DNA from: Nitrososphaerota archaeon
GTDB lineage: Archaea; Thermoproteota; Nitrososphaeria; Nitrososphaerales; UBA183
Assembly (NCBI GenBank): GCA_029785235.1
Contig: JAFMAA010000002.1
Location: 247,712-311,711 of the forward strand
Reading direction: 5' to 3'
Length of the DNA: 64,000 nucleotides
In this document: positions 1,466 through 23,392 of the stretch, one piece after another
Numbering within the stretch: the stretch's first letter is position 1
How the letters are laid out: every line of letters begins with the position of its first letter
The notes under the pieces: model-generated
Databases searched by the model: none
Told to the model about the DNA's origin: nothing
What the model saw: the letters and a program-made list of their open reading frames with translations, nothing else
Position numbers and translations under genes: made by a program

Positions 1466-1537
1466 GGGCCTCGAGTGTGGAAGTCGCACGCGACGCTTGC
1501 AACGTCGTAGGCCGGGGGCAGTACCCGGGAGTGTCCA
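1466..1537 (+). tRNA. tRNA-Ala(TGC), unusual T-loop
   Basis: Anticodon TGC lies in loop CTTGCAA on stem CGACG/CGTCG. CCA is encoded at 1538-1540, which fixes the 3' end. The T-stem CCGGG/CCCGG is perfect, but the T-loop (1517-1523) is GGCAGTA: G54, G55, G58 instead of T54, T55, A58. The D-loop GGAAGTC carries A18-G19. The 3' acceptor strand GAGTGTCC has one bulged T (1532) against GGGCCTC. Confidence 0.85.
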
Positions 1538-1591
1538 CCATGGGAATGATCTGAGCCGTTCGCTTAAATGGAGCCTCTGACGTTGCTTGTG

Positions 1592-2233
1592 TTGAAAGAG
1601 GTAATCAAGGTAAGGCTGGCAACATACGGCGACGCGGCCAAGTTCCTTGAGCTGGAAGCCAGGTGCTTCGAGATGACGCCGAACATGGAGACAACCTACT
1701 TCTGGACGCCGATCGTAGAGAACCTCTGGGCTTACAAGGCCATGGTCGGAGATCGGATAGTGGGAGGCATAATAGCCATGCCCACCCGCGACGGCGAGTG
1801 GTATATCGACTCGCTTTTCGTTGATCCCGAATACCAGAAACAGGGCGTAGCCTCCCTCCTGATGAACCGAGTATTGGCGGTAGCGGGCAACCACACGGTA
1901 GTACTCGACGTCAAGACCGATCGGTCGTTCTTGCTTGACTTCTATGCCAGGTTCGGGTTCGTCGTGAGCGCTAGGATGCCCAACTACTACAACGACGGTT
2001 CAGACAGGCTCTTGCTGGTGAAGGAAGGACGCGAAACGTCAACGGCGAAGCTCGCAGAGAGGCCGCAGGGTTGGTATTACGCTCAGTTCCTCGTCACGAT
2101 GCCCAGAGACCTCTACACCAGGCTCGTTGCGGAAGCCTTGGCCCGCGGAGCCAGCGTGAACCAGGTCATCGAAGACGGATTACGGGGCCTGTTCTCAGAC
2201 GGGGCCGCGCCACAAGGAGAGGGCACCGATTGA
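1592..2233 (+). CDS. GNAT family N-acetyltransferase
   Basis: A GCN5-type acetyltransferase that would transfer acetyl from acetyl-CoA to an unknown amine. The core is visible: a beta strand with IDSLFVDPEYQKQGVASLLM (the acetyl-CoA loop Q-x-x-G-V-A) followed by the segment with DFYARFGF. About 45 residues beyond the domain resemble a short helical DNA- or protein-binding tail (LARGASVNQVIEDGL). The ATG at 1568 overlaps the TATA box CTTAAAT (1563-1569), so the TTG at 1592, 25 bases downstream, is preferred as a leaderless start. Its stop overlaps the next gene's TTG. Confidence 0.85.
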   Translation: MKEVIKVRLATYGDAAKFLELEARCFEMTPNMETTYFWTPIVENLWAYKAMVGDRIVGGIIAMPTRDGEWYIDSLFVDPEYQKQGVASLLMNRVLAVAGNHTVVLDVKTDRSFLLDFYARFGFVVSARMPNYYNDGSDRLLLVKEGRETSTAKLAERPQGWYYAQFLVTMPRDLYTRLVAEALARGASVNQVIEDGLRGLFSDGAAPQGEGTD

Positions 2234-2679
2234 AGAGGCTCTATGTAGCGAGTGCATGCGGTTTCTCTGAGGCAGGGCGGGTCTTCCTGAGAGAGTTCTA
2301 CCAGCGCCTCAGGGACGCCGGGTTCGAGGTGGAGGACCCCTGGGACGGGATAATGGGTCTGAAGCAGGAAGAGGTCCTGAAGGGGGTCGAGAAGGCCGAC
2401 CACGACGCGGCCATGAAGATAGGCGCTGAGAACAGGAACAAGATGGATGCGAGCGACGTCATGATAGCCATCCTGGACGGGACGGACATTGACAGCGGGA
2501 CCGCCTCCGAGGTGGGGTACTTCTTTGCCAAGGGGAAGAGGGTGATCGGGTACAGAGGGGACTTCCGGGCGGCTGGGGACAGCGGAGGGGTAGTCAACCT
2601 CCAGGTCCAGTGGTTCATAGAGAGCTCGGGAGGCAAGATCTACAGGACCCTGGGCGACGTCATCGACGCCCTAAGGTAA
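2230..2679 (+). CDS. Nucleoside 2-deoxyribosyltransferase
   Basis: This enzyme swaps the base on a deoxynucleoside, or hydrolyses deoxynucleoside monophosphates, in salvage. Family marks are the N-terminal strand KRLYVASACGFSEAGR and the nucleotide-binding stretch SDVMIAILDG followed by DSGTASEVGYFFAKGK, whose Glu is the family nucleophile. Length (149 aa) is normal. The TTG start overlaps the preceding TGA stop (TTGA), so the gene is translationally coupled to the acetyltransferase. Two deoxynucleoside kinases lie about 31 kb away in the window. Confidence 0.85.
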   Translation: MKRLYVASACGFSEAGRVFLREFYQRLRDAGFEVEDPWDGIMGLKQEEVLKGVEKADHDAAMKIGAENRNKMDASDVMIAILDGTDIDSGTASEVGYFFAKGKRVIGYRGDFRAAGDSGGVVNLQVQWFIESSGGKIYRTLGDVIDALR

Positions 2680-2697
2680 CTCGGCCCAAGACTAACC

Positions 2698-2771
2698 GGG
2701 CCCGTAGTGTAGCCCAGTAACACACCAGGTCCGCAACCTGGAGTCGCGGGAGCAAAGCCCGCCGGTGTCCA
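2698..2771 (+). tRNA. tRNA-Ala(CGC), unusual T-loop
   Basis: Anticodon CGC in loop TCCGCAA on stem CCAGG/CCTGG. The T-stem GCGGG/CCCGC is intact but the T-loop (2751-2757) is AGCAAAG: A54, G55, A58. The D-loop AGCCCAGTA has A18-G19. The 3' acceptor strand CGGTGTCC bulges one T (2766) against GGGCCCG, as in the other two alanine tRNAs. CCA is not encoded. Confidence 0.85.
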
Positions 2772-2918
2772 CTCCTTTTAGCGAGCTCAGTAGAGGTGTG
2801 GTGTCAGCTGCACCTGCTCGGGGCGGTGCACCGCGTGCGCGTGTACCGGTCCCGCAATATTTCTACACAGCCCATGAACGCCTTTGGCAAGGCACCTGCC
2901 TGCACTTCCGGGCCCACG

Positions 2919-2957
2919 TTGACAGGTCAAACCGAACGCTTTAAGTTGACAGGTCAA
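2919..2957. promoter_or_regulatory. Twin operators flanking the RHH gene promoter
   Basis: Two perfect 12-base palindromes TTGACAGGTCAA (2919-2930 and 2946-2957), centres 27 bases apart, flank the TATA box CTTTAAG (2939-2945). The second overlaps the transcription start region. This is the arrangement expected for repression of the downstream ribbon-helix-helix gene by its own product. Binding itself is inferred. Confidence 0.75.
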
Positions 2958-2963
2958 GCTAGG

Positions 2964-3575
2964 ATGCCGATGCCGGAGAAGGGGTGGACCAATGTGGTCG
3001 TAAGGGTTCAGCTCAAGACGGTTCTCAAGGCAAAGGCAGAAGAAGAAGGATGTTCCATCGGCGAGCTCATTGAAATGGGGCTGGCCGCCATCGAGGTACA
3101 AAGAGAGGCCGACAAGGCACAAGGGAGATCTGGCACGGAACAGCAGCCTCCCGAGCCAGTTTCTGATCACAAGGAAAGAGAAAGACCTGCGCCACCCGTC
3201 CCACGCCAGGTTGCACCCAAGCCAAGGCCCCAACGGCAGACGGGTACGTTCGTGTCCGCGCCTAGGCTGCCACCGGAACGAGCGCCGGCCCCGAAGACTG
3301 AGCCCCCTCCCCCTACAGAGCCTCAACAGCCAGCTACGTTGACACGTCAACCGGAGCCGCAGCCAGAGCCGCTGACACGTCAAGCGCCTGAACGCCCGCC
3401 GGAACGGTCTCTGGCAGAAATGGAACGAGAGATCGACATAAAGACCGGGTCGGGCAACCAAGCCTCCCTTCCAGAGATGGAGAGACAGATCATGGCAGAT
3501 CCCAACACTCCTGAGGATGTCAAGCGCGCCCTGCTGCGGCAACTGTACAAGAGCCGCGGCATCACCTTCCACTAG
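2964..3575 (+). CDS. Ribbon-helix-helix DNA-binding protein with proline-rich tail
   Basis: Residues 8-45 (WTNVVVRVQLKTVLKAKAEE followed by GCSIGELIEMGL) form a ribbon-helix-helix DNA-binding domain. The middle is a long Pro/Arg/Glu-rich linker and the C-terminal 45 residues form two acidic/basic helices with a repeated (S/P)(L/E)xEMER motif. ATG 2964 is chosen because it follows the TATA box and operators. The coding sequence itself contains two more copies of the palindrome, each encoding LTRQ. Autoregulator, plasmid-partition adaptor or nucleoid protein are all possible. Confidence 0.75.
   Translation: MPMPEKGWTNVVVRVQLKTVLKAKAEEEGCSIGELIEMGLAAIEVQREADKAQGRSGTEQQPPEPVSDHKERERPAPPVPRQVAPKPRPQRQTGTFVSAPRLPPERAPAPKTEPPPPTEPQQPATLTRQPEPQPEPLTRQAPERPPERSLAEMEREIDIKTGSGNQASLPEMERQIMADPNTPEDVKRALLRQLYKSRGITFH
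3339..3382. promoter_or_regulatory. Two operator palindromes inside the RHH coding region
   Basis: TTGACACGTCAA (3339-3350) and TGACACGTCA (3373-3382) lie in the same reading frame, centres 33 bases (three helical turns) apart, and both encode LTRQ in the disordered linker. They match the promoter operators except for the two central bases. Confidence 0.6.
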
Positions 3576-3940
3576 ATATTCATGGTCTCCTGGCCAACAA
3601 TCAAGGACTCCTCACAATCCTATTGATTTCGCAACAATATTGCATAACTACTGTTCCCACAACGTAATACAAAATTGTATACTAGGGCATGCTGCGCGCT
3701 TAGTACCTATGTAGTAGGCTTCAATTGATGCCAGTATCATAGGTTTTGCACCAGGGACGCGCCCCGGTTAGGCACAAACACACACCGTTCACCTAGTCCC
3801 CCGGCTTCTCCCGAGCCCAGGAGGTCTGCCTGAGCAGGCCAGGGCGAGGTCGTGCCCATCTTTCTCTGCTTTCTCTGCTGCTACTGATTTTGTAGGTCCG
3901 GAAGTGCCACTTTTCTTGCAAAGCCCCAGATCCGGCAAGC
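3576..3940. other. Non-coding, AT-richer gap
   Basis: Between the RHH gene and the operator cluster I see no reading frame with a promoter, no tRNA and no clear hairpin. The first half is clearly AT-richer than its neighbours. It could be part of a partition or replication control region, given the operators on both sides. Confidence 0.4.
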
Positions 3941-3995
3941 TGACCGGTCAGGCTGACATGTCAGGCGGTTTAGACCTGTCAACGGTGACATGTCA
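3941..3995. promoter_or_regulatory. Cluster of four TGACNNGTCA sites
   Basis: Within 55 bases lie TGACCGGTCA (3941-3950), TGACATGTCA (3954-3963), the one-mismatch AGACCTGTCA (3972-3981) and TGACATGTCA (3986-3995). Centres are about 13, 18 and 14 bases apart. Dense iterons of an RHH-protein site are typical of plasmid centromeres or multi-site operators. No TATA box lies between them, so a centromere-like role is as likely as repression. Confidence 0.65.
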
Positions 3996-4047
3996 ACAGG
4001 AGCCTGACGGTTGAGACAGGAGGGTGCTACGCATTTTGTGGTATCTT

Positions 4048-4194
4048 ATGCCACCCGGAGCGTTCGAGTCTATGCGCAGGCTGTCCGAATTCGGGACCCA
4101 ACACACCATCTCCGGTCTCATAGGTAGAGCCTGCAAATCTCGCGGCGTTGACTGCTCTGGAATAACAGGAATCACTCTCTATAATCTCGAGTGA
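4048..4194 (+). CDS. Small hypothetical protein, 48 aa
   Basis: A short frame starting MPPGAFESMRRLSEFG and containing the turn-rich segment ISGLIGRACKSRGVDCSG. It begins about 50 bases after the four-site operator cluster, with a weak CATTTTG box about 20 bases upstream of the ATG. No family is recognised. If real it may be controlled by the RHH protein. Confidence 0.35.
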   Translation: MPPGAFESMRRLSEFGTQHTISGLIGRACKSRGVDCSGITGITLYNLE

Positions 4195-4199
4195 GTTGG

Positions 4200-4446
4200 G
4201 TTATTGCTGTGAGCGCGAGGAATCGCCAAGGTAGGGCAGGACAGGAGCCTCAACAGCTCTCAGCTCGGTGGTGAGTCCCACCGCCAAGCCGTGCCCGAAC
4301 TCAAGCCCGCGGAGACCGCGCCTGCACCCTCTGAGACACGCAAGTCTAGGAGGGCGAGCCAGGCCCATGAAGCAGGAACTACACGCGGCAGGAGCCATGC
4401 CGCCCAGCGAAGCCCGCCGCTGGAAGCCAACGACTTCAGTCGTGGG
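4200..4446 (+). mobile_element. IS605/TnpB right-end remnant with reRNA-like 3' region
   Basis: The stretch resembles the tail of a tnpB gene and the guide-RNA scaffold that overlaps it: CCCATGAAGCAGGAACT followed by GAAGCCAACGACTTCAGTCG and the terminal hairpin ACGACTTCAGTCGT, then GGAGGATGTCAC, the form commonly seen at right ends of archaeal IS605/IS1341 elements. The reading frame reads KPTTSVVGGCH here but is broken by a stop near 4230, and no tnpB body remains. A tnpB start fragment lies at about 8.3 kb on the other strand. Confidence 0.65.
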
Positions 4447-4458
4447 AGGATGTCACGT

Positions 4459-4812
4459 TCAGGAGCGTGAGACCGTCCGTCTCGAGATCCGCACCAGGCC
4501 TATCCAACCCGCTATGTAGGAGAGGCACAGGCCACCTACTGCGATTACCATCGCCCACTGAAAGCTGACGATGCTCATGACCCACCAGGTGTAGCCGAGA
4601 GTAGCACCCATGAACACAAGCATCAGCAGTGTGGCCCGCACGAGGTACCGTTCAGACGGCTTTCTTCCAGCCGTCAGGCGCTTCCAGAGCACCGATAGCG
4701 TTTGGCTTACCGGCGGCCTGGTCCATGGCTTCGTCTCGACAATGCCACAACTGACGACCACAGCGCTGAAGCCGTTGAGCTCGACAATCTGGTCGTGTTC
4801 TCCGTCTGCCAT
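4459..4812 (-). CDS. Two-helix membrane protein
   Basis: 117 residues with two hydrophobic segments, around residues 62-80 (LLMLVFMGATLGYTWWVMSI) and 85-105, a short loop between them and a basic C-terminus. The N-terminal 60 residues are soluble. It is last in a leftward four-gene cluster and its start overlaps the preceding stop by one base. No family is recognised. Confidence 0.6.
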   Translation of the reverse strand: MADGEHDQIVELNGFSAVVVSCGIVETKPWTRPPVSQTLSVLWKRLTAGRKPSERYLVRATLLMLVFMGATLGYTWWVMSIVSFQWAMVIAVGGLCLSYIAGWIGLVRISRRTVSRS

Positions 4813-5054
4813 TAGGCGCCATCCTGCTCAATATTGGTATGTGGGCCGGACGCAAGCGCCGCTTCCGCTCGGTCGCTGTCCTCATACTCCTGGATCTGGG
4901 ACTCGAGCTCGGCTATCTGGTTCTTCACAGCCGACAGTTCCGACTTTTCCATCTCCGTCAGCCCTGACAGTCTCCCTTCGTACCCCGCCTCTGCGCGAAG
5001 GAAGTACCCGAGCCAACGCTTGGTCAGATCCAGCTGGATATCGTTATCGATCAT
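4812..5054 (-). CDS. Small coiled-coil protein
   Basis: 80 residues starting MIDNDIQLDLTKRWLGYFLR, followed by a charged helix ending KNQIAELESQIQEYEDSDR, a likely coiled coil, and a short acidic tail. Its ATG overlaps the stop of the upstream gene (ATGA), so it is translated as part of the same mRNA. Function is unknown. Confidence 0.65.
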   Translation of the reverse strand: MIDNDIQLDLTKRWLGYFLRAEAGYEGRLSGLTEMEKSELSAVKNQIAELESQIQEYEDSDRAEAALASGPHTNIEQDGA

Positions 5055-5242
5055 TGGGCTTCGACTCCCGGTGCCGGGCCGGTATCCCGAGTCCCACCGG
5101 CAATCAGACCTACTACACCAAAGATGACTGCGCCAGCGACCATGCCGTAAAGCCCGGCGAATACTCCCACCCCCGCTCCACCACACATCCCGAACGTTCC
5201 GAGCCTGATAGCGTCGTAACCTAACCGCCAACTCCACTTCAC
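5051..5242 (-). CDS. Glycine-rich membrane protein
   Basis: 63 residues dominated by one or two Gly/Ala/Val-rich hydrophobic stretches (GMCGGAGVGVFAGLYGMVAG, then AVIFGVVGLIAGG), resembling small pore-forming or glycine-zipper membrane proteins. The GTG start overlaps the upstream TGA (GTGA). It lies between a soluble small protein and a coiled-coil protein in one operon. A holin-like or toxin role is possible but not supported by homology I can see. Confidence 0.55.
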   Translation of the reverse strand: MKWSWRLGYDAIRLGTFGMCGGAGVGVFAGLYGMVAGAVIFGVVGLIAGGTRDTGPAPGVEAQ

Positions 5243-5445
5243 GTCATGACCCCCCTCCCTTGCAACTCTGATATGGCGACAGCAGACAGGGGACCGGCAT
5301 CCGCCTTTGCCGACGCCACAAGAGAGCCCCAAACACGGGGCCTGAACGCCTGAAGGTACAGCTCATACCATGAGATTGGGGCCCACCGAGGGTAACGCAT
5401 TGGCAATATCGTCCTTTGCTTGCCAGTCAGATGACCTCTAGACAC
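5239..5445 (-). CDS. Small hypothetical protein, first gene of cluster
   Basis: 68 residues from the GTG at 5445, 25 bases downstream of a CGTTAAATG TATA box, which sets it as the leaderless first gene. It contains the aromatic stretch YPRWAPISWYELYLQAF and an Ala-rich tail. No domain is recognised. The three genes that follow overlap one another by 1-4 bases. Confidence 0.5.
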   Translation of the reverse strand: MSRGHLTGKQRTILPMRYPRWAPISWYELYLQAFRPRVWGSLVASAKADAGPLSAVAISELQGRGVMT

Positions 5446-5477
5446 ACTTACTGGAATCAACCTATCATTTAACGTTC

Positions 5478-5519
5478 AGTGCCGCGGTGTTCCAATTGGA
5501 CTAGGAATTCGACGGCGCT
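5478..5519 (+). ncRNA. Truncated tRNA-like element
   Basis: A 7-bp closing stem AGTGCCG/CGGCGCT (5478-5484 with 5513-5519) encloses a single D-arm-like hairpin, TTCC and GGAA around a loop AATTGGACTA that contains GG. The anticodon and T arms are absent. A TTTAAC box lies just upstream. It may be a deletion-derived tRNA pseudogene or one half of a split tRNA. Confidence 0.35.
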
Positions 5520-5530
5520 CTTATAATCAT

Positions 5531-5603
5531 GGGGCTCGATTTCGAGTAGCAGAATCCCAGCCTGTTAAGCTGGAGGGTAGAGGTGCAAGTCCTCTGAGCT
5601 CCG
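5531..5603 (+). tRNA. tRNA-Asn(GTT), unusual T-loop
   Basis: Anticodon GTT in loop CTGTTAA on stem CCAGC/GCTGG. Acceptor GGGGCTC/GAGCTCC has one G:U. G73 and CCA are encoded (5604-5606). The T-loop (5584-5590) is TGCAAGT, with G55, and the D-loop carries AG rather than GG. The 54:58 pair is the normal T:A. Confidence 0.9.
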
Positions 5604-5696
5604 CCATCTTATTAACAAAAACAGACTGAATTCAAAAATGACCTGTTGTTATTTCCGTTATGTTTGTTATTTTCAACGATGGTATTATTCGACCAT

Positions 5697-5769
5697 AGGG
5701 GCGTGGAGCAGTGGACAACCTCGCCGGGCTTTGACCCCGGAGACGCCCGTTCGAATCGGGCCGTCCCTA
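5697..5769 (+). tRNA. tRNA-Gln(TTG)
   Basis: Acceptor AGGGGCG/CGTCCCT, anticodon TTG in loop CTTTGAC on stem CCGGG/CCCGG, canonical T-loop TTCGAAT and D-loop with GG. A73 and CCA are encoded (5770-5772). A1-T72 is shared with the second glutamine tRNA at 12.4 kb. Confidence 0.9.
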
Positions 5770-5812
5770 CCATCAAACTTTGCCTGCTGGGTTGTGACAG
5801 CATCTAAATCTT

Positions 5813-5883
5813 GGACGTATAGTCTAACAGTAGAACGCCGGTCTTACAAGCCGGAGACCCTGGGGCAGCACCAGGTACGTCTA
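5813..5883 (+). tRNA. tRNA-Val(TAC), unusual T-loop
   Basis: Anticodon TAC in loop CTTACAA on stem CCGGT/GCCGG. T-stem CCTGG/CCAGG is perfect, T-loop (5864-5870) is GGCAGCA (G54, G55, G58). The D-loop AACAGTA has A18-G19. The D-stem has one mismatch. CCA is not encoded. Confidence 0.85.
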
Positions 5884-5913
5884 CTTACTCTTTCCCGACA
5901 GCAGGCACTTATG

Positions 5914-6393: not shown

Positions 6394-6552
6394 ATATTTC
6401 ATGCTTGCCATCACTTAAAACGTAAGCTATGGCAAACATCACACTAACGCGGGAAGAGTCGATGGGGGATTACGGGTAGCTAAGAGAGTACTTGTTCAAC
6501 TCTGGGATCCAACCAAGTCTTCTCATTAAATTGACAATAGAACGACTAACAT

Positions 6553-7230
6553 GTGAAATGCCGAAAATGTGGCGTAGAACTCGTTGAGAATATCAATTGG
6601 GCTCCGTCCGAGACCAAGCGCCATCAACGCATTTGCAGATTGTGTCAAGCAGCTCAATGTACTGCTTGGCGAAGGAAACATGGAGCACGTCCTCGAAGGA
6701 AGACTGGTGATAACAAGTACGGGATACCATCAACTCTACCAGATGGAAGACACAATCCCGCATACATGACAGCACAGCGAAGAGCCCGCGGAATTGGCCC
6801 ACGAATTTCGGGAGTCTCGAAGTGGAGGGTTCCGCATCGGCTCCCTGACGGTACGGTTAATCCAGAGTATGACCGTGTCAGAAGGAAATCGCCAGAATAT
6901 CGAAAAATGGAGCGAGTAAGAAGAAAGCGCCCAGAGTACAGACAACTCAACACAATAATCCATAACAGGAGAAGACGCGGTCTTAGCGCCGACCTGGTGT
7001 TGGGTAAGATTAGACGTGGACGAGCGGGTCATCACATTACAAAATCAGTTGTCGTGTACATACCACAGAGTCTTCATAGAAGTGTTTCTCATTGTGTATT
7101 TGATGGAAAAGGAATGAGCAAAATAAATAGAAAGGTTATTCGATATTACGAACGACTCGGTAAAATAGAGATAGTCAACCAGATAAAGAAAGAACTCCAT
7201 CTACTCCCCGACGAGATAGCGAGCTACTGA
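6553..7230 (+). CDS. Zinc-finger protein with HNH-like C-terminal domain
   Basis: Residues 3-31 hold two CxxC pairs (C3, C6, C28, C31), a zinc ribbon. The middle is Arg/Lys/Tyr-rich with repeated PDG-x-NPxY and RRKxPEYR units. The C-terminal part, HHITKSVVVYIPQSLHRSVS then GKGMSKINR, resembles a His-rich module seen in small archaeal and phage HNH-type nucleases. This suggests a DNA endonuclease, possibly a homing enzyme. It is A+T rich, unlike most of the window, and sits directly before the RNase P RNA. Confidence 0.5.
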   Translation: MKCRKCGVELVENINWAPSETKRHQRICRLCQAAQCTAWRRKHGARPRRKTGDNKYGIPSTLPDGRHNPAYMTAQRRARGIGPRISGVSKWRVPHRLPDGTVNPEYDRVRRKSPEYRKMERVRRKRPEYRQLNTIIHNRRRRGLSADLVLGKIRRGRAGHHITKSVVVYIPQSLHRSVSHCVFDGKGMSKINRKVIRYYERLGKIEIVNQIKKELHLLPDEIASY

Positions 7231-7231
7231 C

Positions 7232-7485
7232 GGTGCCTTCTAGGCGCTGAGGAAGCTCAAAAATCCACACGGGCTGCCCAGCAGCAAGAGCTGCACGTCG
7301 TAAGACGTGGCAATGCAACAGAGACGGTCGGCTACCCTTTGTAGCCGGGTGAAACGGGTAACCCTTGGGCGGATCAAGGCGAAATACGACCAGTGACGAG
7401 CCTGTCTGAGACCGAGGTATGCCGCGCAAGCCGAATTTCGCCTACAAACAGAACCTGGGCTACGGCTATCCCACCACCTTCATAC
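7232..7485 (+). ncRNA. rnpB: RNase P RNA
   Basis: Several universally conserved RNase P segments occur in the right order: a GAGGAAGCTC-like CR-I near 7249, GGGTGAAACGGGTAACCC near 7345, then CGGATCAAGGCGAAATA (CR-II/III region) near 7370, and ACAGAACCTGGGCTAC (CR-V) near 7448. GGTG at the 5' end can pair with CACC at the 3' end. The RNA would be the catalytic subunit that trims tRNA 5' leaders. The CR-I match is imperfect and the boundaries are approximate. It sits among tRNA genes. Confidence 0.75.
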
Positions 7486-7488
7486 GAC

Positions 7489-7558: not shown

Positions 7559-7593
7559 TTTTCTAACAACAAAGTTAACACACATTGAACAAT

Positions 7594-7665
7594 CCAGACG
7601 TGGTGTAGTAGTTAGCATACTCGTCCGTAAAACGAGTGGCGCCGGGGCGGATCCGGCCGTCTGGA
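7594..7665 (+). tRNA. tRNA-Tyr(GTA), unusual T-loop
   Basis: Acceptor CCAGACG/CGTCTGG with the archaeal tyrosine C1-G72 pair, A73 and encoded CCA (7666-7668). Anticodon GTA in loop CCGTAAA. T-stem GCCGG/CCGGC is perfect; T-loop (7646-7652) is GGCGGAT (G54, G55, G58). The D-loop reads AGTAGTTAGC where most tRNAs have AGTGGTTAGC. Confidence 0.9.
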
Positions 7666-7702: not shown

Positions 7703-7776
7703 GCGCCCGTAGTTCAGCCAAGTAGAACAGGGGCCCTTTAAGCCTCAAGTCGTGGGAGCAAAGCCCACCGGGCGCG
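7703..7776 (+). tRNA. tRNA-Lys(TTT), unusual T-loop
   Basis: Acceptor GCGCCCG/CGGGCGC, anticodon TTT in loop CCTTTAA, G73 and encoded CCA (7777-7779). T-stem GTGGG/CCCAC; T-loop (7757-7763) is AGCAAAG (A54, G55, A58). The D-loop AGCCAAGTA has A18-G19. The T-arm core GGGAGCAAAGCCC is the same as in tRNA-Ala(CGC). Confidence 0.9.
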
Positions 7777-7785
7777 CCAATTAAT

Positions 7786-7868
7786 CCCATGTATGTGGGA
7801 TGGTCCCATGGTTGTGGGATCTCGAGGATACCCCGGGGTCTGGGTTAGAATCCCAGTAGGAGCGCCAT
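7786..7868 (+). pseudogene. tRNA-like remnant
   Basis: The 3' end looks like a tRNA: T-stem CTGGG/CCCAG with loop TTAGAAT, then TAGGAGC, G and CCA. A D-arm-like hairpin TCCCATGGTTGTGGGA is present and partly duplicated upstream as TCCCATGTATGTGGGA. No matching 5' acceptor strand is found, so this is probably a decayed or rearranged tRNA; a spaced 5' half cannot be excluded. Confidence 0.35.
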
Positions 7869-7902: not shown

Positions 7903-8370
7903 CTATTTCTTCCTTCCTGCGGCGTACAGGAGCGCACTCCTGGCCGTCTCGAGGAGCTGCTTGTTCGGGTAGTCTCCGCTTACCTTGTCGAACCACCAGA
8001 GCCCCTCCTCCGTCAGCTTGTCTGCCAACGCCTGGGCGTGTGAGATCGCCCCGGTCGCCACGAAGAGGTCCTTGACGTACAGCACGTCTTTCTCGGTCTT
8101 CTCTGGCTTCGCGTATATCGCCTTCAGCTTCTCCAGCTCGTCCCGCTTGGCGTTCTGGACGGCGTAGTACAGTATGGCGGTCTTCGTGCCCTCGCGGATG
8201 TCGGTGTACGGCTCCTTGCCGAGCTGCTCTCTGGTCGCGGTGCAGTCTAGTATGTCGTCCTTGATCTGGAAGGCCTTCCCTATGGGCGCGCCGTAGGTCT
8301 CTATCATACTGAGCATGCGATCCTCCTGCTCCCCCGTCGGGTAGAGCCGAAACCTGAAGACGCGCCTCAT
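7903..8370 (-). pseudogene. C-terminal half of a polyprenyl diphosphate synthase fused to a TnpB start
   Basis: From about residue 26 the protein matches the C-terminal half of geranylgeranyl-type synthases: GKAFQIKDDILD is the second aspartate-rich motif, followed by TDIREGTKTAILYY. The first DDxxD motif and the N-terminal half are missing. Residues 1-25, MRRVFRFRLYPTGEQEDRML, instead match the start of IS605 TnpB (FRLYPTxEQE). A TATA box CTTTATAG is 21 bases upstream of the ATG. The chimera is intact for 155 codons, so it may be expressed, but it cannot make prenyl chains alone. Confidence 0.75.
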
Positions 8371-8445
8371 GCAGTCCAGGTGCTGCAGAACTATAAAGCA
8401 CATTCTCGCTTTCATCCCAGGGCTGAAGCGCCTGGGACTTCCCGC
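8371..8445 (-). mobile_element. IS605-type left-end remnant
   Basis: Upstream of the TnpB-derived start codon lies a perfect hairpin, 7-bp stem TCCCAGG/CCTGGGA (8415-8421 with 8431-8437) with a 9-base loop, then the TATA box at 8391-8398. Subterminal hairpins just before tnpB are typical of IS200/IS605 left ends. The element was apparently deleted from inside tnpB into the prenyl synthase gene. Confidence 0.45.
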
Positions 8446-8507: not shown

Positions 8508-8579
8508 GTTGCTGTAGTCCATGCAGTAGGACCCCCACCTGGGACGTGGAAGAACGGCGTGCAAGTCGTCGCAGCAACA
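8508..8579 (+). tRNA. tRNA-Pro(GGG), unusual T-loop
   Basis: Acceptor GTTGCTG/CAGCAAC, D-stem GTCC/GGAC with loop ATGCAGTA (A18-G19), anticodon GGG in loop CTGGGAC. T-stem CGGCG/CGTCG holds T-loop TGCAAGT (8560-8566) with G55 and a normal T54:A58. CCA is not encoded. The outer anticodon-stem pair looks weak. Confidence 0.8.
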
Positions 8580-8678: not shown

Positions 8679-8765
8679 GGGGACGTGACACAATTGGATT
8701 CAGCCAACCGGTCTCCAATGACGGGAGAAAACCGAGTTGTGAGCGTTCGAATCGCTCCGTTCCCA
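8679..8765 (+). tRNA. tRNA-Trp(CCA) with short intron
   Basis: Acceptor GGGGACG/CGTTCCC, A73 and encoded CCA (8766-8768). The anticodon loop begins CTCCAA, giving CCA, and is followed by an intron of roughly 10-12 bases whose GGGAGA can pair with TCTCC in the loop. T-loop TTCGAAT and D-loop GG are canonical. The outer anticodon-stem pair is C-A; intron borders are approximate. Confidence 0.8.
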
Positions 8766-8769
8766 CCAC

Positions 8770-9589: not shown

Positions 9590-9663
9590 GGCCTCACAGG
9601 GGGAAGAGACGACCTACCGGGTTGTGGCCCCGGAACTAGCCGGTGCGAGTCCGGCGTGAGGCC
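9590..9663 (+). tRNA. tRNA-His(GTG), unusual T-loop
   Basis: Acceptor GCCTCAC/GTGAGGC with C73 and an encoded G at position -1 (9590), the histidine identity pair. Anticodon GTG in loop TTGTGGC on CCGGG/CCCGG. T-stem GCCGG/CCGGC, T-loop (9644-9650) TGCGAGT with G55 and T54:A58. The D-loop has AG and no GG. Confidence 0.85.
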
Positions 9664-10140: not shown

Positions 10141-10233
10141 GCCGACAGAGCGCGAGTGGCAGAGCACCATCCTTGTACGGCCATTTTGGCTCAAGAGAGA
10201 TGGGAGGTGTGGGTTCGAGCCCCATTGTCGGCT
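10141..10233 (+). tRNA. tRNA-Thr(TGT) with intron
   Basis: Acceptor GCCGACA/TGTCGGC, T73 and encoded CCA. The anticodon loop CTTGTA is followed by an intron of about 20 bases (10178-10197) after position 37. Anticodon stem CCATC/GATGG. T-loop TTCGAGC and D-loop GG are canonical. Confidence 0.88.
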
Positions 10234-11281: not shown

Positions 11282-11354
11282 GCCGCCGACCCGAATTGGT
11301 TTAGGAACTCGCTTCGTAAGTGAGGTTATGGGCGTTAGACGCGTCTCGCCGGCT
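11282..11354 (+). tRNA. tRNA-Thr(CGT)
   Basis: Anticodon CGT in loop TTCGTAA on stem CTCGC/GTGAG. Acceptor GCCGCCG/CGCCGGC has one C-C mismatch; T73 matches the other threonine tRNA. The T-loop TTAGACG keeps T54, T55 and A58 but has A at 56. The D-loop has GG. CCA is not encoded. Confidence 0.7.
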
Positions 11355-11436
11355 TTTTCTGAAGTCACCAAAGTATCCAAACCATGCACAATGCGCTAGC
11401 GATCAGCTAGCAAGTGCTAGGATACGCGAAAATGGC

Positions 11437-12208: not shown

Positions 12209-12282
12209 TCCGTGGGTCGTCTAACTAGATAGGATACCCGCCTGTGAAGCGGGAGATCTGGGGGCAGATCCCAGCCGCGGAA
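12209..12282 (+). tRNA. tRNA with GTG anticodon, non-histidine body
   Basis: Acceptor TCCGTGG/CCGCGGA, A73 and encoded CCA (12283-12285). Anticodon loop CTGTGAA on CCCGC/GCGGG reads GTG. It lacks the G-1:C73 pair of tRNA-His, and the body (D-arm GTCTAACTAGATAGGAT) looks more like Asp/Glu-type tRNAs. T-loop (12263-12269) is GGCAGAT (G54, G55, G58) and the D-loop has AG. Confidence 0.75.
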
Positions 12283-12415: not shown

Positions 12416-12488
12416 AGTCTCATCGTTCAGCGGTCAAGGATACCTCTCTCTGAAAGAGGAGACGGTCGTTCGAATCGGCCTGGGACTG
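12416..12488 (+). tRNA. tRNA-Gln(CTG)
   Basis: Acceptor AGTCTCA/TGGGACT, G73 and encoded CCA (12489-12491), anticodon CTG in loop CTCTGAA on CCTCT/AGAGG, T-loop TTCGAAT, D-loop with GG. All canonical. Confidence 0.9.
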
Positions 12489-17230: not shown

Positions 17231-17285
17231 TACTAATGCATGCCCTAATATGATAAAAGCACCGTTGAAAGTCGACAGCAGATGC

Positions 17286-18404: not shown

Positions 18405-18562
18405 GGTATATGGGAAAGCGGCAGAATTTAACACATTTGGCGTTGAATTCGTGAACGGGGTTTCAAACTGTTTGAACAACCATGCAACGGCTTAGAACGA
18501 GCCACGAATGGCTAATGGAGGTGATTTTGCGGCGCTTTTTAGAATCGCCGAAGTCATAGCGC

Positions 18563-19180: not shown

Positions 19181-19488
19181 GCGTACTCGCGCCAGGTGTG
19201 GTTGCACTTCACGCACCTGTAGAACCTCGTGGTCGGCTCGTCGCCTCCCCTAGTCTGCTGCATGAACCAAGTAGCCTTTCCGTGGCCGCACTTCGGGCAC
19301 TCTTCGTCGACGGTTGAGACTCCATCGGTGGCGGCGCCGTCGATGGTCTTCATGGCTTCCGGGTCGGCGCCTTCAGAGCGTTCGACGACCTTGACACTCG
19401 CCTGCTCGCTATATCCGCACTTGGAGCAGACGTAACCATCGGCCTGCCGCCTCATGTATGAGCTGCACTTTGGGCAGAACTTCAACAT
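19177..19488 (-). CDS. tfs: Transcription factor S (RNA polymerase cleavage factor)
   Basis: Two zinc ribbons: KFCPKCSSYM...CSKCGYS and ECPKCGHGKATWFMQQTRGG followed by DEPTTRFYRCVKCNHTW. The DE pair in the second ribbon inserts into the RNA polymerase secondary channel and triggers transcript cleavage in backtracked complexes. The protein is 103 residues, typical. The TATA box GTTATTAAC is 25 bases upstream. A TFS-like gene on a mobile element could alter host transcription, as known for some archaeal viruses. Confidence 0.9.
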   Translation of the reverse strand: MLKFCPKCSSYMRRQADGYVCSKCGYSEQASVKVVERSEGADPEAMKTIDGAATDGVSTVDEECPKCGHGKATWFMQQTRGGDEPTTRFYRCVKCNHTWREYA

Positions 19489-19534
19489 GGTGATAGCCGC
19501 GCTGAGTTAATAACGACAGTGGACGCGCCGGCTG

Positions 19535-19927
19535 TCAGTACTTCCCTGCCTTGATGTCTTCCAGGATCTTCTCGGCCGCAGCCAACTCTTCCGGTGTCGC
19601 CTTCCCCTCCGCAGCGCGGAGTATGACGAGGAGGATGTCTGCTTGCATGCGCATGTGCTCGAACGCCGAGTCCAGGTCGGTACCCAGCTGGTACCGCCTG
19701 TGCATGTAGCCTACAGTGGTAGCAGCGGCGGTAATCACTCCCCCGAGAACCAGGGCCAGCATAACGATGTTGTACTCGGGGAACTTCACGCTCACTATGA
19801 CGACAAAGCCTGAGAAACTGACGAGCAAGGACAGGTAGGACGAGTACCCGTTCCTGGTGTCGAACCATCTTCTCTTGGCCCACTCCTTCTTGACCCAACA
19901 CCACCAACCGCCCTTCGGGTTGTTCAC
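19535..19927 (-). CDS. Two-helix membrane protein
   Basis: 130 residues: a Trp- and Lys-rich N-terminus, two membrane segments (about residues 31-48, SLLVSFSGFVVIVS, and 55-75, VMLALVLGGVITAAATTVGY) and a cytoplasmic helical tail. Its start overlaps the stop of the upstream membrane gene by 4 bases. No family is recognised. Confidence 0.65.
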   Translation of the reverse strand: MNNPKGGWWCWVKKEWAKRRWFDTRNGYSSYLSLLVSFSGFVVIVSVKFPEYNIVMLALVLGGVITAAATTVGYMHRRYQLGTDLDSAFEHMRMQADILLVILRAAEGKATPEELAAAEKILEDIKAGKY

Positions 19928-20154
19928 TCTACAAACACCTTCCCCAGCCTGCGCACGCCTGCGAGCAGCGTGGCGTCAAACAGCGCCACGAGCGACATGG
20001 CTAGCCCCGAGGCGCCCATCACCGCCCTGACTTCGAGGGTGGACACCGGCACGGTCCAGCCCGGGGTGACCGCCAGCAGCACAAGTGGGATCCCCACGAA
20101 CACCAACAGGAAGAGGAACCCTAGCGGGAGATGCTCTCTTTCCACTCCATCCAC
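19924..20154 (-). CDS. Small membrane protein
   Basis: About 76 residues with two hydrophobic helices (PLGFLFLLVFVGIPLVLLAV and VMGASGLAMSLVALFDATLL). GTG 20154 or 20145 are both possible; either lies inside the end of the upstream gene, so the start depends on coupling. It forms a three-gene leftward operon with its neighbours. Confidence 0.55.
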   Translation of the reverse strand: MDGVEREHLPLGFLFLLVFVGIPLVLLAVTPGWTVPVSTLEVRAVMGASGLAMSLVALFDATLLAGVRRLGKVFVE

Positions 20155-20501
20155 ACTCCTTCTATCTTCCTGAGTATCACGCTCTTCTCCACAGCGAACA
20201 GGGCGTTCCTGCGAGAGTAGCCGTTGGTAATGACCACCCGCCTGTCGCCGTTCTGGGTGGCGTACACCTCTATGTTGCCTCCCCACCGGCCCAGCCGCTG
20301 CTCGTCAGAGCGCTTGCCCGGGTTCGGCTCCCTATCGAGGAGCTCTGCGAGTATCGAGCCGCCGAAGAAGGCACCGATCTTGGCCCTGGACTCGACCACC
20401 GACTTTGGCGATGCCTTGTCAAGCACGAGTGACATGGTGACTATCTCAGTGAGAGCGGGATTGTTGTTGTTGGGGTCTACGAGCCTGGCGGCGATATCCA
20501 T
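20121..20501 (-). CDS. Hypothetical protein, 126 aa
   Basis: A soluble alpha/beta protein with LTEIVTMSLVLDKASPKSVV and a C-terminal strand-rich part (GNIEVYATQNGDRRVVITN). The TATA box GCTTAAAT is about 25 bases before ATG 20501, making it first gene of an operon with the two membrane proteins that follow. No family is recognised. Confidence 0.6.
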   Translation of the reverse strand: MDIAARLVDPNNNNPALTEIVTMSLVLDKASPKSVVESRAKIGAFFGGSILAELLDREPNPGKRSDEQRLGRWGGNIEVYATQNGDRRVVITNGYSRRNALFAVEKSVILRKIEGVWMEWKESISR

Positions 20502-20577
20502 GCCAACATTAGACAGCGGGTAATTTAAGCAGATGAGGGCCTAATAGACAGACGATCGCTTATTGCATTGACCGACA

Positions 20578-20805
20578 CTAGGACGTCTGGAACCCGCCAC
20601 GGCCCAGCCGCCCGGCATTCACGGATCCCAGCTCGTAGGTGCACCCGCACGTGATCTGCTCCTGGTCGAGCGGGTGGGTCAGCGGGGTCACGTAGTATTT
20701 CGCCGGGGTCGCCACATAGCACATCCTGCCGGTATGGCGAGGGTGGCGGCACGACGGGCAAAAAACGCCTGCCTTTACAGCTGCGGCCTCGGCCTCTGTT
20801 AGCAT
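20578..20805 (-). CDS. Small zinc-binding protein
   Basis: 75 residues with FCPSCRHPRHTGRMC and later CGC, giving several Cys/His for a zinc site, and a short helix at the N-terminus. ATG 20805 is about 25 bases after GTTTTAAG; an earlier in-frame ATG falls too near the box. Function is unknown. Confidence 0.5.
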   Translation of the reverse strand: MLTEAEAAAVKAGVFCPSCRHPRHTGRMCYVATPAKYYVTPLTHPLDQEQITCGCTYELGSVNAGRLGRGGFQTS

Positions 20806-20848
20806 GGCAACAGAGCGGCCAGGCACTTAAAACGTGCTGGACCGGACG

Positions 20849-21373
20849 TCAGGGATACGAGAACAGCCCCGACTCGGAAGCGAGGTAACAGCGCACATCC
20901 TTCCCTTCCAGCGCAGTGGCCATGAGGTCGAGATTCTCTTTCTTGTCTTCTAGCAGTATCACGGTAGAATACCCAACGGTCAGCTCTCCCAGCTTCTCCT
21001 TCTTCCAGTCCTCGTCTCTGCCGCTCATGTCCTCTCTCATGACCAGCTTGTCGTAGGGCACATTGTACTTCTTGAGGAGCGCGCTCACCTCCCCTACCTG
21101 AGCTGACGACCCGGCGCTGAGGATCACCACCGGCATCCCCCTCTTCTCGCACGCCTGGACGTACTCTATGGCCTTCATGTTAGGGACGAAGAGGTGGTTG
21201 TAGCGGCGCTTCGCAGCTTCGTAGATGGCTTCCTTGAGGCCGTGGCCGAGAGAACGCACCTGGGCCCTGGACAGCGGCTTGCCCATTATGTCTTCCGAAG
21301 CGGCAGCAACCGCGGCTCCGCTCATGAAGAGGGTGTCGTCGAAGTCAGAGACAACTATGGAGTCGTTGCTCAT
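20849..21373 (-). CDS. HAD-superfamily hydrolase
   Basis: Motif I is VVSDFDDTLFMSG (nucleophile DxDxT), motif II the Ser/Thr region VVILSAGSSAQ, and the acidic motif IV is VILLEDKKENLD. The cap is short and helical. It is probably a small phosphatase. ATG 21373 sits 25 bases after the TATA box GTTTTATG, whereas the ATG at 21385 is only 13 bases away, so the shorter form is chosen. Confidence 0.75.
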   Translation of the reverse strand: MSNDSIVVSDFDDTLFMSGAAVAAASEDIMGKPLSRAQVRSLGHGLKEAIYEAAKRRYNHLFVPNMKAIEYVQACEKRGMPVVILSAGSSAQVGEVSALLKKYNVPYDKLVMREDMSGRDEDWKKEKLGELTVGYSTVILLEDKKENLDLMATALEGKDVRCYLASESGLFSYP

Positions 21374-21378
21374 GGCCT

Positions 21379-21810
21379 TTAACATCCTTGGAACATAAAA
21401 CCGCCAGCAGCATTGACGGCCCTATGCGGCTTCTTGAGACCCGGGGCAGCCCGGCTGGATATGTACGCGGATATCTCTTCCGTCGTCACGAGGGAGTCGA
21501 TGGCCCTCTTTGAAACGGACACGATCCTGGCTATGTCGCCGATCTTGGCCCAGGTGCCGTCTGGAACTGTGTACACGCCGTGCCTTCGCATCTGCCAGCC
21601 CAGAGAGATAGGGGCCAGGGCCTCGTAGCTGTTTCCGGGCGCGTCAAGTAGTCTTAGAGCCAGGTTGCGCTTGTTGCTGAACTTGAACCCTATGAGCGGC
21701 GCCTGTTCGCGGGACCCTTGTGTCGGTCTCCCGAAAGAGAACGTCGTATGGCACCAGTGCTGGCCTTCGGAGAACTTCCCGATCCACACCGAGACCGTTA
21801 TCTCTTCCAC
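21379..21810 (-). CDS. Hypothetical protein, 143 aa
   Basis: The N-terminal half looks like beta strands (EEITVSVWIGKFSEGQHW), the C-terminal half like helices with a possible helix-turn-helix (AKIGDIARIVSVSKRAIDSL). It ends just upstream of the HAD gene promoter. No family is recognised. Confidence 0.55.
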   Translation of the reverse strand: MEEITVSVWIGKFSEGQHWCHTTFSFGRPTQGSREQAPLIGFKFSNKRNLALRLLDAPGNSYEALAPISLGWQMRRHGVYTVPDGTWAKIGDIARIVSVSKRAIDSLVTTEEISAYISSRAAPGLKKPHRAVNAAGGFMFQGC

Positions 21811-21816
21811 ATAACG

Positions 21817-22194
21817 TCACCAATCGTAGAGCCAGCTTCTCAGGTTGGCCGAGTTGTACAGCGTGTCGCCGCACCTAGGGCAGGGGGCGTGGAATGCACA
21901 TTCGACCACGGAGTAATCGTGGTCGCACCGATGACCATGGAGCCTGTCATGGTTGATGCAGTAGAACGGATGCCCTTTGGGGTCGCCCGAGCAGTACAAG
22001 TTGGAGTCGAGGATGCCCTCGATGGCTGTGATTCCTGTGTCGTGGCGGCGCTCATGTATCCCTGCCCACGTCAGCATTTCCATGCCGCATTTCTGGCACT
22101 TCATCGGGAAGCAGGTCGTGCAGAAGTACGTGTTGCCGCCGCGCAGCGCCATGGTCGCCAGGGGATGTATCTGGCAATACAGCACGTAGACCAT
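21817..22194 (-). CDS. Cysteine/histidine-rich zinc protein
   Basis: 125 residues with four or five potential zinc knuckles: CTTCFPMKCQKCGMEML, then HERRHDTG, CINHDRLHGHRCDHD and CPRCGDTL. Several treble-clef or ring-like folds are possible. The TATA box GCTTTTAG lies 25 bases before ATG 22194. Function is unknown. Confidence 0.6.
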   Translation of the reverse strand: MVYVLYCQIHPLATMALRGGNTYFCTTCFPMKCQKCGMEMLTWAGIHERRHDTGITAIEGILDSNLYCSGDPKGHPFYCINHDRLHGHRCDHDYSVVECAFHAPCPRCGDTLYNSANLRSWLYDW

Positions 22195-22261
22195 GACAAT
22201 ATCACGCGAGCGGGGCTAAAAGCACCGGCGCCCGTTTAATACGCAGGCGTCCATTCATAGC

Positions 22262-22500
22262 ACTCGAGCGGGCATCCCGAAGGCGCCAATCCCGGCTTCA
22301 TTAAGCCGGTGCCCAGGTCTCTTCCATCGGCCTGGAGTGCGCCAGGGAGTCCTCGATGGAAAAGGCGGGGCCGGAAACGGCACGGGCGGCTGATGCCCTG
22401 GTCGCGAAAGCGACTCTGGAAAAGCCGCCCTGGGATCCAAGAGCCGCACGACCGCGTTCCTCGACCGCCATCGGGGCGAAAAGGCTCCGTCTCGAGTACA
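22262..22500 (+). ncRNA. Highly structured RNA of unknown class
   Basis: A GTTTAATA box (22234-22241) predicts a transcript starting near 22262. The ends pair (ACTCGAG 22262-22268 with CTCGAGT 22491-22497). Inside are perfect hairpins: CCGGCTT/AAGCCGG; TTCCATCG/CGATGGAA enclosing CCTGG/CCAGG; GCCG-GAAA-CGGC; and GGGCGGCT/AGCCGCCC enclosing GTCGC-GAAA-GCGAC. Two loops are GAAA tetraloops. No convincing frame runs through it. It does not show the conserved blocks of RNase P, SRP or rRNA. Confidence 0.65.
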
Positions 22501-22552
22501 TTAGCCCAGCGCTGCCGGCGACCCTTAAATTCTCAAGGCTACACGAGATGGC

Positions 22553-23113
22553 ATGAAGCCCGCTGTCTGTTTCGCTACGTCCAACGACGGCAAGTTCAAT
22601 GAAGCTGTAGACATACTCAAACCCTACGGCATCGTCGTGAAGCGACTGCCTGCGAAGGGCACGGAGATCCAGTCGGAGAGGGTCACAGACATAGCGGTGC
22701 GAGCAGCTGCTGAAACATACTCACTGGAGAAGAAGCCTATCATCGCAGAGGACACGGGCCTGTACGTCCACAAGCTCGATGGGTTCCCGGGGCCATACGC
22801 CGCCTACGCCCTGAAGACCATAGGCCCCGACGGGTTGCTCAGGCTCTTGAAGGGGAAGAAGAGAGGCGCGCACTTCGAGACGTCGTTGGCGTACGTCGAC
22901 GGCAGCTCCATAATCGAGTTCACAGGTACGCTCGAAGGGACCATATCGTCGAAACAGAGGGGGTCGAACGGCTTCGGGTACGACCCTATCTTCGTCCCGT
23001 CAGGCTACAGGATGACGCTCGCCGAGATGACCCGCGAGGAGAAGAACAAGGTCTCCCACCGGTCACAGGCGTTCACAGCGTTCGGAAGATGGTACGCGAA
23101 AAGGATTCCATAG
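22553..23113 (+). CDS. rdgB: XTP/dITP pyrophosphatase (RdgB/HAM1 family)
   Basis: Hydrolyses deaminated purine triphosphates (ITP, dITP, XTP) to keep them out of nucleic acids. Motifs: FATSNDGKFNEA, the substrate stretch AEDTGLYVHKLDGFPGPYAA, GFGYDPIFVP and HRSQAF near the end. The protein is 186 residues, full length. ATG 22553 is 25 bases after TATA CTTAAATTC. It joins four Nudix genes as a nucleotide-sanitising set. Confidence 0.9.
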   Translation: MKPAVCFATSNDGKFNEAVDILKPYGIVVKRLPAKGTEIQSERVTDIAVRAAAETYSLEKKPIIAEDTGLYVHKLDGFPGPYAAYALKTIGPDGLLRLLKGKKRGAHFETSLAYVDGSSIIEFTGTLEGTISSKQRGSNGFGYDPIFVPSGYRMTLAEMTREEKNKVSHRSQAFTAFGRWYAKRIP

Positions 23114-23122
23114 AACAGTGAG

Positions 23123-23206
23123 TGGAGACGGCGGGATTCGAACCCGCGTAGCCCCTCCGGGCGCGGCTTCTAAGGCCGCTGGCGTTGGCCGCTTGCCTAC
23201 GTCTCC
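23123..23206 (-). tRNA. tRNA-Leu(TAG)
   Basis: Acceptor GGAGACG/CGTCTCC, anticodon TAG in loop CTTAGAA on GCGGC/GCCGC, a long variable arm (GCCCGGAGGGGC), T-loop TTCGAAT and D-loop with GG. A73 as expected for leucine. CCA is not encoded. It is the last of seven co-oriented type II tRNA genes. Confidence 0.9.
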
Positions 23207-23209
23207 AGA

Positions 23210-23295
23210 TGGTCGAGGCAGGCTCTGCCCCTGCGTAGTCCCTTCGGACAGCCGGGTTTAGGCCGGCCGCGTTTGACTGGCTCCGCCACTCGACC
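23210..23295 (-). tRNA. tRNA-Leu(TAA), unusual T-loop
   Basis: Acceptor GGTCGAG/CTCGACC, anticodon TAA in loop CCTAAAC on GCCGG/CCGGC, long variable arm with TCCCTTCGGACA-type stem. T-stem GCAGG/CCTGC holds T-loop GGCAGAG (complement of 23223-23229): G54, G55, G58. The D-loop GAGCCAGTCAAA has AG where Leu(CAA) has GG. Confidence 0.88.
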
Positions 23296-23306
23296 ACGAG
23301 AATGAG

Positions 23307-23392
23307 TGATGTGGGCCGGCTTTGCTCCGGCGCAGGCCCTTCGGCCCCAGGTTCTCAGCCTGGCGGGTTTGACTGGACTTCCCTACCACATC
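23307..23392 (-). tRNA. tRNA-Leu(GAG), unusual T-loop
   Basis: Acceptor GATGTGG/CCACATC, anticodon GAG in loop CTGAGAA on CCAGG/CCTGG, long variable arm. T-stem GCCGG/CCGGC, T-loop AGCAAAG (complement of 23320-23326): A54, G55, A58. The D-loop AAGTCCAGTCAAA has A18-G19. A73. Confidence 0.88.

Follow-up and report, generated by a model that had tools for sequence, protein, structure and literature searches.

Eleven transfer RNA (tRNA) genes in a 64-kb stretch of DNA from a Nitrososphaerota archaeon (64,000 nucleotides, hereafter the window) carry A18 together with G55 at the elbow, where the D-loop and the T-loop meet. The contact of G18 with pseudouridine 55 is treated as an almost universal lock on the shape of tRNA, and a G at position 55 cannot become pseudouridine, as an earlier note on this DNA had correctly argued. 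We consider it probable (roughly 0.6) that the tRNAs of the element to which the window belongs have had their 18:55 contact re-encoded from G:U or G:C to A:G, with a predicted lock that does without pseudouridine 55 and likely hides them from elbow-reading enzymes. This reading is carried by the paired change itself, by its conservation in a relative of the element and its reappearance in viral contigs, by its absence from the tRNA-like loci of the host chromosome assembled with the relative, and by parallel changes at other tertiary contacts (8:14, 15:48 and 54:58 in the window, 19:56 in the relative).

The tRNA genes are concentrated between approximately 0.8 and 24 kb of the window. ARAGORN called 13 tRNAs, the Rfam family RF00005 gave 13 matches above its cut-off, a custom scanner found 19, and a relaxed Rfam search added one more (12210-12281). 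Only five of the eleven A18/G55 tRNAs were reported by ARAGORN; five of the 13 Rfam matches were G55 genes (at 2698, 5532, 5813, 7594, and 7703), and the remaining G55 genes either fell below the cut-off or were matched in the relaxed search only. We placed 20 tRNAs by hand in the standard columns and read two more by eye (Trp at 8679 and one of Ser-CGA type), giving 22. A check of the hand-placed parts against the DNA gave mismatches only at the expected bulges, introns and extra base, and at one surplus A in the relative's Leu-CAG, which did not enter the statistics. In the 20 placed tRNAs, 18:55 was A:G in 11, G:T in seven, and G:C in two, so that 11 of 20 depart from the G18 with U55 that is invariant in RF00005. 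The claim of eleven such tRNAs was thus borne out.

The eleven fall into three T-loop types. Loops of the form UGCRA occur in three forward-strand genes, tRNA-Asn(GTT) (5531-5603, TGCAAGT, with G8:G14), tRNA-Pro(GGG) (8508-8579, TGCAAGT, with U15:A48), and tRNA-His(GTG) (9591-9663, TGCGAGT, with A8:A14). The AGCAA form, with A54:A58, was found in another three, all reading AGCAAAG: tRNA-Ala(CGC) (2698-2771) and tRNA-Lys(TTT) (7703-7776) on the forward strand, and tRNA-Leu(GAG) (23307-23392) on the reverse. The GGCRG form, with G54:G58, accounts for the other five, namely tRNA-Ala(TGC) (1466-1537, A18-G19, GGCAGTA, with G8:G14), tRNA-Val(TAC) (5813-5883, GGCAGCA), tRNA-Tyr(GTA) (7594-7665, GGCGGAT), and a second GTG tRNA (12209-12281, GGCAGAT) on the forward strand, and tRNA-Leu(TAA) (23210-23295, GGCAGAG) on the reverse. 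The second GTG tRNA has an extra base between the acceptor and D stems as well as A73, and its body resembles that of an Asp or Glu tRNA.

Variation in the 20 placed tRNAs extended to other tertiary contacts. Position 54:58 was T:A in 12, G:G in five, and A:A in three, all of the G:G and A:A cases lying within the G55 class; 8:14 was T:A in 16, G:G in three, and A:A in one; 15:48 was G:C in 13, A:T in three, and T:A, G:G, A:A, and A:C in one each. By contrast, G19:C56 and G53:C61 were retained in all 20. When 1711 column pairs (both columns variable) were ranked by normalised mutual information, helix pairs took ranks 1 to 15, and the leading non-helical pairs were 18:55 (rank 16), 8:14 (20), 54:58 (21), and 15:48 (22), all four being contacts known from tRNA structures. 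Permutation gave p values of 1.5e-5 for 18:55, 4e-5 for 54:58 (0.0023 inside the G55 class alone), and 9e-4 for 8:14. We set the D-loop register manually, a choice that might work to the advantage of 18:55, but in most cases it is fixed by the loop lengths of same-size neighbours (for example, Asn GAGTAGCA against Thr GAGTGGCA), with the relative in agreement. The loop positions had been assigned correctly. As 54:58, 8:14, and 15:48 are re-encoded in the same tRNAs, the change at 18:55 is one of several tertiary swaps.

The relative is a 154-kb contig (C2) of a Nitrososphaerota metagenome-assembled genome (MAG; G173), syntenic with 20-60 kb of the window in reversed order. C2 stops short of the region matching 1-20 kb of the window, so that only the Leu/Ser tRNA cluster is covered. 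Both A18/G55 homologues in this cluster keep A18 with G55: Leu-GAG (loop AGCGAAG) has exchanged its acceptor pair 2:71 from A:T to C:G, and Leu-TAA (GGCAGAG) its pair 27:43 from G:C to A:T. The partner base was said to change with G55, and it does so in all 11 window tRNAs as well as in these other copies. Among the canonical members, Leu-CAG has C19:G56 in C2 where the window has G19:C56; C55 of Leu-CAA and of Ser-GCT has become T55, and T55 of Leu-TAG has become C55.

These data bear on whether the eleven could be pseudogenes or misread loops, which we regard as extremely improbable. Mismatches do occur in a few copies, and the window holds two broken tRNA-like stretches (described below); stems had been called perfect, which failed at 10:25 of Asn (T-T) and 13:22 of His (G-A). 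Pseudogenes would show unconstrained change in stems and loops, whereas here the stem changes in the relative are compensatory, four tertiary pairs covary, and the stems are open to both parsers, so the relative already contradicts this explanation. The statement that the change is not random decay agrees with these compensatory changes, and the permutation result puts the paired change beyond chance. All three Ala tRNAs (857-930, 1466-1537, and 2698-2771) need a bulged U in the 3' strand of the acceptor, after which their stems pair, and the bulge appears in their minimum-energy folds. Folding z-scores of the 11 G55 tRNAs ranged from -1.05 to -3.43. An encoded CCA, described as frequent, was found in part of the set only. 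The AT-rich stretches that lie 20-35 bases upstream are variable whichever class the tRNA belongs to, and permit no promoter conclusion. Identities of the A18/G55 tRNAs to host and element tRNAs are low and scattered; we considered a single origin by copying of one tRNA, and such identities show neither one origin nor many.

The same MAG contains a 1.7-Mb contig (C1), the chromosome, which served as a host control. G55 was absent from its 36 tRNA-like loci (25 parsed by script, all with T55 or C55 and C56, and 11 whose T-arms were read by eye); these are all the tRNA-like matches on C1 of this one MAG, and 10 scored under the family cut-off. A54 occurs with A58 in one host tRNA. Several host tRNAs carry C55 (loci L106, L109, L120, and L121; TCCGAAT and similar), a position that is usually U, which means that the element is not alone in having G18:C55.

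We then looked for the trait in IMG/VR with an A18/G55 pattern first verified on the window. It returned 44 stretches, of which 25 had tRNA stems (21 distinct), all 25 with unambiguous A18 and G55; their T-loops read TGCGA in seven and began with A in 18. A matched A18/T55 scan returned 32 stretches, 19 with stems: five had unambiguous A18, seven were ambiguous, and seven had GG one step earlier. The comparison is therefore 5/19 for A18/T55 against 25/25 for A18/G55, though T55 is the far commoner base. Covariation without exception, as had been claimed, holds within the window, and the five viral tRNAs with A18 and T55 break it elsewhere. A Leu-type pattern, checked on the window, gave one match (L146), which we ruled out, as ARAGORN called no tRNA there and the stretch is coding-like.

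On 35 of the matched contigs (L148-L182), ARAGORN called 181 tRNAs, and removing 17 weak and 22 pattern-selected ones left 142. With A18 taken as AG in a D-loop lacking GG, these comprised 46 A18/G55, 75 G18/T55, five G18/C55, two A18 with T55 or C55, two G18/G55, and 12 others (Fisher 3e-30 for the 18-55 association in the 130 classed tRNAs). The trait occurred in most scored tRNAs of three contigs (15/15 on L175, 19/20 on L167, and 8/10 on L181), and arrays that bear it can hold most isoacceptors. Position 56 was other than C in 8 of 162 viral-contig tRNAs, seven of them with a complementary 19 (permutation p 1.5e-4), which indicates that 19:56 can be re-encoded as well; on L168, L172, and L149 this pair is C:G, U:A, or A:U instead of G:C, and loops such as ATCGTTA with A54:U58 also occur. 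Contig L161 has matches to tail sheath, portal, and major head proteins, and an A18/G55 Met-CAT tRNA lies between portal and head. Some viral A18/G55 Met-CAT genes have an unpaired 1:72, and in bacterial initiator tRNAs 1:72 is unpaired.

Named phage records, chosen by similarity to the arrays and not at random, were mostly canonical. In phiKZ, XacN1, CcrColossus, I3, IME-SM1, CP21, GodonK, and Pokken, all 98 scored tRNAs (104 called) have GG with T55. Eight further records with 42 scored tRNAs gave 38 GG/T, two AG/G, one TG/T, and one AG/T. The two A18/G55 cases are Met-CAT of phage CBW1004C-Prop1 and Lys of Salicola phage SCTP-2, and their occurrence amid mostly canonical tRNAs makes the trait patchy.

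The main rival explanation is near-neutral drift, in which element tRNAs are partly redundant with those of the host, so that the 18:55 pair is free to wander and a double change persists only if it is compensated. Several tertiary pairs indeed vary together, mixed states adjoin within one array, uncompensated A18/T55 intermediates exist in viral tRNAs, and Leu-CAA, Ser-GCT, and Leu-TAG switch between C55 and T55 in the relative. Nevertheless, A:G dominates at 18:55 in both the archaeal element and unrelated viral contigs, where drift would give scattered states; three viral contigs carry the trait in most scored tRNAs; and the eight phages with 98 of 98 canonical tRNAs keep G:T though they are largely host-redundant too. 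We thus think drift unlikely, yet deserving of serious consideration.

Identity features are retained in the window's tRNAs, including G3:U70 in the three Ala tRNAs, C1:G72 in Tyr, and G at -1 with C73 in His, which we take to be identity elements, and judging from the sequences the A18/G55 tRNAs are probably charged and used. They might instead be charged without acting as normal elongators, serving as decoys for defence nucleases or as amino-acid donors off the ribosome. The 18-55 pair has reportedly been linked to ribosomal translocation (Pan et al. in 2006, going by the title), so its change could lower use by the ribosome. The breadth of eleven isoacceptors, G19:C56 in all 20 tRNAs, the retained identity features, and the A18/G55 Met-CAT genes of viral contigs point to general translation, and make such a specialised role quite improbable.

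How the re-encoded elbow might work is suggested by known structures. According to an excerpt of PMC4810234, residue 18 of the canonical elbow inserts between 57 and 58, where it contacts 55, and passages of PMC3764141 describe UGAAA T-loops of the flavin mononucleotide (FMN) riboswitch in which this gap is filled by an A that comes from another loop. By analogy with that intercalated A, A18 would insert between 57 and 58 and face G55. A54:A58 and G54:G58 may stand in for the U54:A58 reverse-Hoogsteen pair; an A54-A58 pair is known in eukaryotic initiator tRNA, as stated in part of PMC7912444. That G:G and A:A appear at both 54:58 and 8:14, which are of the same reverse-Hoogsteen type, suggests a swap by pairs of like geometry. 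The same T-loop/D-loop lock would in this way be rebuilt without pseudouridine 55, and the tRNAs would likely be hidden from enzymes reading the canonical elbow. Most speculatively, selection may have favoured escape from elbow-reading enzymes, be they defences that cut tRNA or nucleases of the element itself, along with freedom from the host's elbow-modifying enzymes during rapid production of many tRNAs.

A further rival explanation is self-sparing, in which a nuclease made by the element or virus degrades host tRNAs through their canonical elbow and leaves the altered tRNAs intact. Viral tRNA acquisition has reportedly been tied to degradation of the host translation machinery (Yang et al. 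in 2021, going by the title), most isoacceptors can be present in an array that has the trait, and repair and CCA-adding families are present on the relative. On the other hand, such a nuclease was not identified and the canonical half of the window's tRNAs would be cut, and we judge self-sparing improbable.

Several points weigh against a re-encoded lock that evades elbow-reading enzymes. Half of the window's tRNAs retain the canonical pair, a mixture not accounted for by simple escape, and nothing in the data points to a particular enzyme that would be evaded. The relative covers only two of the eleven A18/G55 tRNAs. Some of them (for example, Pro-GGG, His, and Leu-TAA) have a minimum-energy fold that falls short of a full cloverleaf, and we found no precedent for G54:G58. 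Four of the 130 classed viral-contig tRNAs are crossed, A18/T55 stands uncompensated in the five viral tRNAs and possibly in the seven ambiguous ones, and the eight canonical phages, some with large arrays, indicate that viruses do not have the trait as a rule.

The canonical class of the window comprises, on the forward strand, tRNA-Ala(GGC) (857-930, with the bulge noted above), tRNA-Pro(TGG) with an intron (1139-1251), tRNA-Gln(TTG) (5697-5769), tRNA-Thr(TGT) with an intron and G8:G14 (10141-10233), and tRNA-Gln(CTG) (12416-12488), all G18:T55, together with tRNA-Trp(CCA) (8679-8768), which has GG and T55 by eye and a poor D stem. On the reverse strand are tRNA-Leu(TAG) (23123-23206, G18:T55), tRNA-Leu(CAA) (23398-23484, G18:C55), tRNA-Leu(CAG) (23490-23573, G18:T55), an intron-containing tRNA-Ser of CGA type (23586-23701, GG and T55 by eye), and tRNA-Ser(GCT) (23708-23791, G18:C55). 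Twelve tRNAs with G18 and T55 or C55 had been listed, of which seven G:T, two G:C, and the two read by eye stand and the twelfth was not confirmed; likewise, 22 of the 23 tRNAs described as readable were recovered, the candidates for the 23rd being broken copies with A56. One, at 7800-7866, is a tRNA-like 3' half (T-loop TTAGAAT, acceptor strand, and CCA) with no matching 5' half nearby, and may be a split, permuted, or decayed tRNA. The other, at about 11290-11358, is Thr-like with a short D arm.

The tRNA-rich stretch also contains a full-length match to archaeal RNase P RNA (7211-7474, forward strand; Rfam, 107.5 bits, compared with 187.9 bits for the copy on the host chromosome of the relative's MAG), a second, divergent gene carried by the element. 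We considered whether this RNA is fitted to the new elbow; element and host copies differ at one base in a conserved AGAAA stretch, which is too little. At 7903-8415, a truncated polyprenyl synthase fragment is followed by an OrfB/IS605-like match, and palindrome-like motifs TTGACAGGTCA / TGACATGTCA, possibly partition or regulator sites, are repeated at 2900-4010 and about 12300.

The relative was reached through an 804-amino-acid marker protein of the element family (46098-48512, forward strand), to which three other proteins are 67-68% identical, one of them on a 154,010-bp contig of a Nitrososphaerota archaeon. Its profile matched 1/400 genomes from the class of a related archaeon, 1/400 of the order, and 1/389 of the phylum (overlapping sets), each time MAG G173, and no match appeared in scans of IMG/VR and of 84,980 genomes. 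A ParB-like partition protein (29769-30821, forward strand) is 90% identical to the relative's copy; neither it nor a 614-amino-acid protein had a match in the IMG/VR scans, and the profile of the latter matched 6/400 genomes, five weakly, the best of these being a 3.8-kb contig. Among 94 of 208 selected open reading frames on C2, we found RNA ligase, polynucleotide kinase, and tRNA nucleotidyltransferase families, which puts genes for RNA repair and the tRNA array together on one element, as well as topoisomerase I, Orc1/Cdc6, ParB, and TnpB. These were read from the 25 most shared families per library; no capsid, portal, or terminase was among the 25 listed of 47 families, nor in 10 window proteins. 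Contigs recorded as carrying the window's Ham1 protein reach 314,598 bases. The carrier is likely a large extrachromosomal element of a Nitrososphaerota-type archaeon, and may be a virus or a plasmid.

A search of the open literature, with partial coverage, turned up no account of tRNA sets with A18/G55; no such set was said to be known, which stands to that extent, while IMG/VR contigs and at least two named phage records do carry A18 with G55. Natural sets in which G18-pseudouridine 55 is replaced by covarying bases show the lock to be open to re-encoding, and they offer ready substrates for studying the purpose of pseudouridine 55 and of the enzymes that make it. Finders and models of tRNA are built on G18-pseudouridine 55, and the ARAGORN count of five in eleven warns that annotation tools under-score such tRNAs. 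The sets also suggest the elbow as an unexamined front between mobile elements and tRNA-cutting defences. We offer more tentatively, as a possibility we would not bet on, that archaeal and bacterial mobile elements convergently evolved a second elbow code (18:55, 54:58, 8:14, 15:48, and 19:56), yielding pseudouridine-independent tRNAs unseen by elbow-reading nucleases and modifiers and insulating the element's translation.

Compared with the canonical elbow (G18-pseudouridine 55, G19-C56, U54-A58, and U8-A14), the window's tRNAs share the cloverleaf, loop sizes, contact positions, and G19:C56 in 20 of 20, and differ by A18:G55 in 11/20, A:A or G:G at 54:58 in 8/20, and G:G or A:A at 8:14 in 4/20. 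The L2 and L5 T-loops (UGAAA) of the FMN riboswitch, in the portion of PMC3764141 that treats them, have a G at loop position 2, as do the G55 loops of the window, and admit an A from another loop between positions 4 and 5; in sequence, the UGCRA loops fit this motif. The difference is that the motif would here sit within a tRNA, where C56 also pairs with G19, and AGCAA and GGCRG depart from the U...A closing pair. In the sections of PMC10264068, PMC11555353, and PMC12803027 on which we draw, phage and plasmid tRNA arrays are proposed to resist tRNA-cutting defences. They resemble the present case as sets on mobile elements thought to escape host tRNases, with RNA repair genes nearby; those sections place the changes in the anticodon loop, tRNA supply, or anticodon domain, whereas those of the window are in the elbow. 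Pyrrolysine tRNA (tRNAPyl) and the metazoan mitochondrial tRNAs without G18-G19 or TPsiC, as an excerpt of PMC7609411 presents them, are also natural tRNAs lacking G18 and pseudouridine 55. In those, the D/T contact is lost or rewired and the loops are altered, while the window's tRNAs have loops of full size, in which a paired substitution is predicted to preserve the contact. Finally, the Borg-type giant elements, as outlined in parts of PMC9605863, PMC11208441, and PMC12660748, are similarly large archaeal elements with host-like genes, carried by a different host group.

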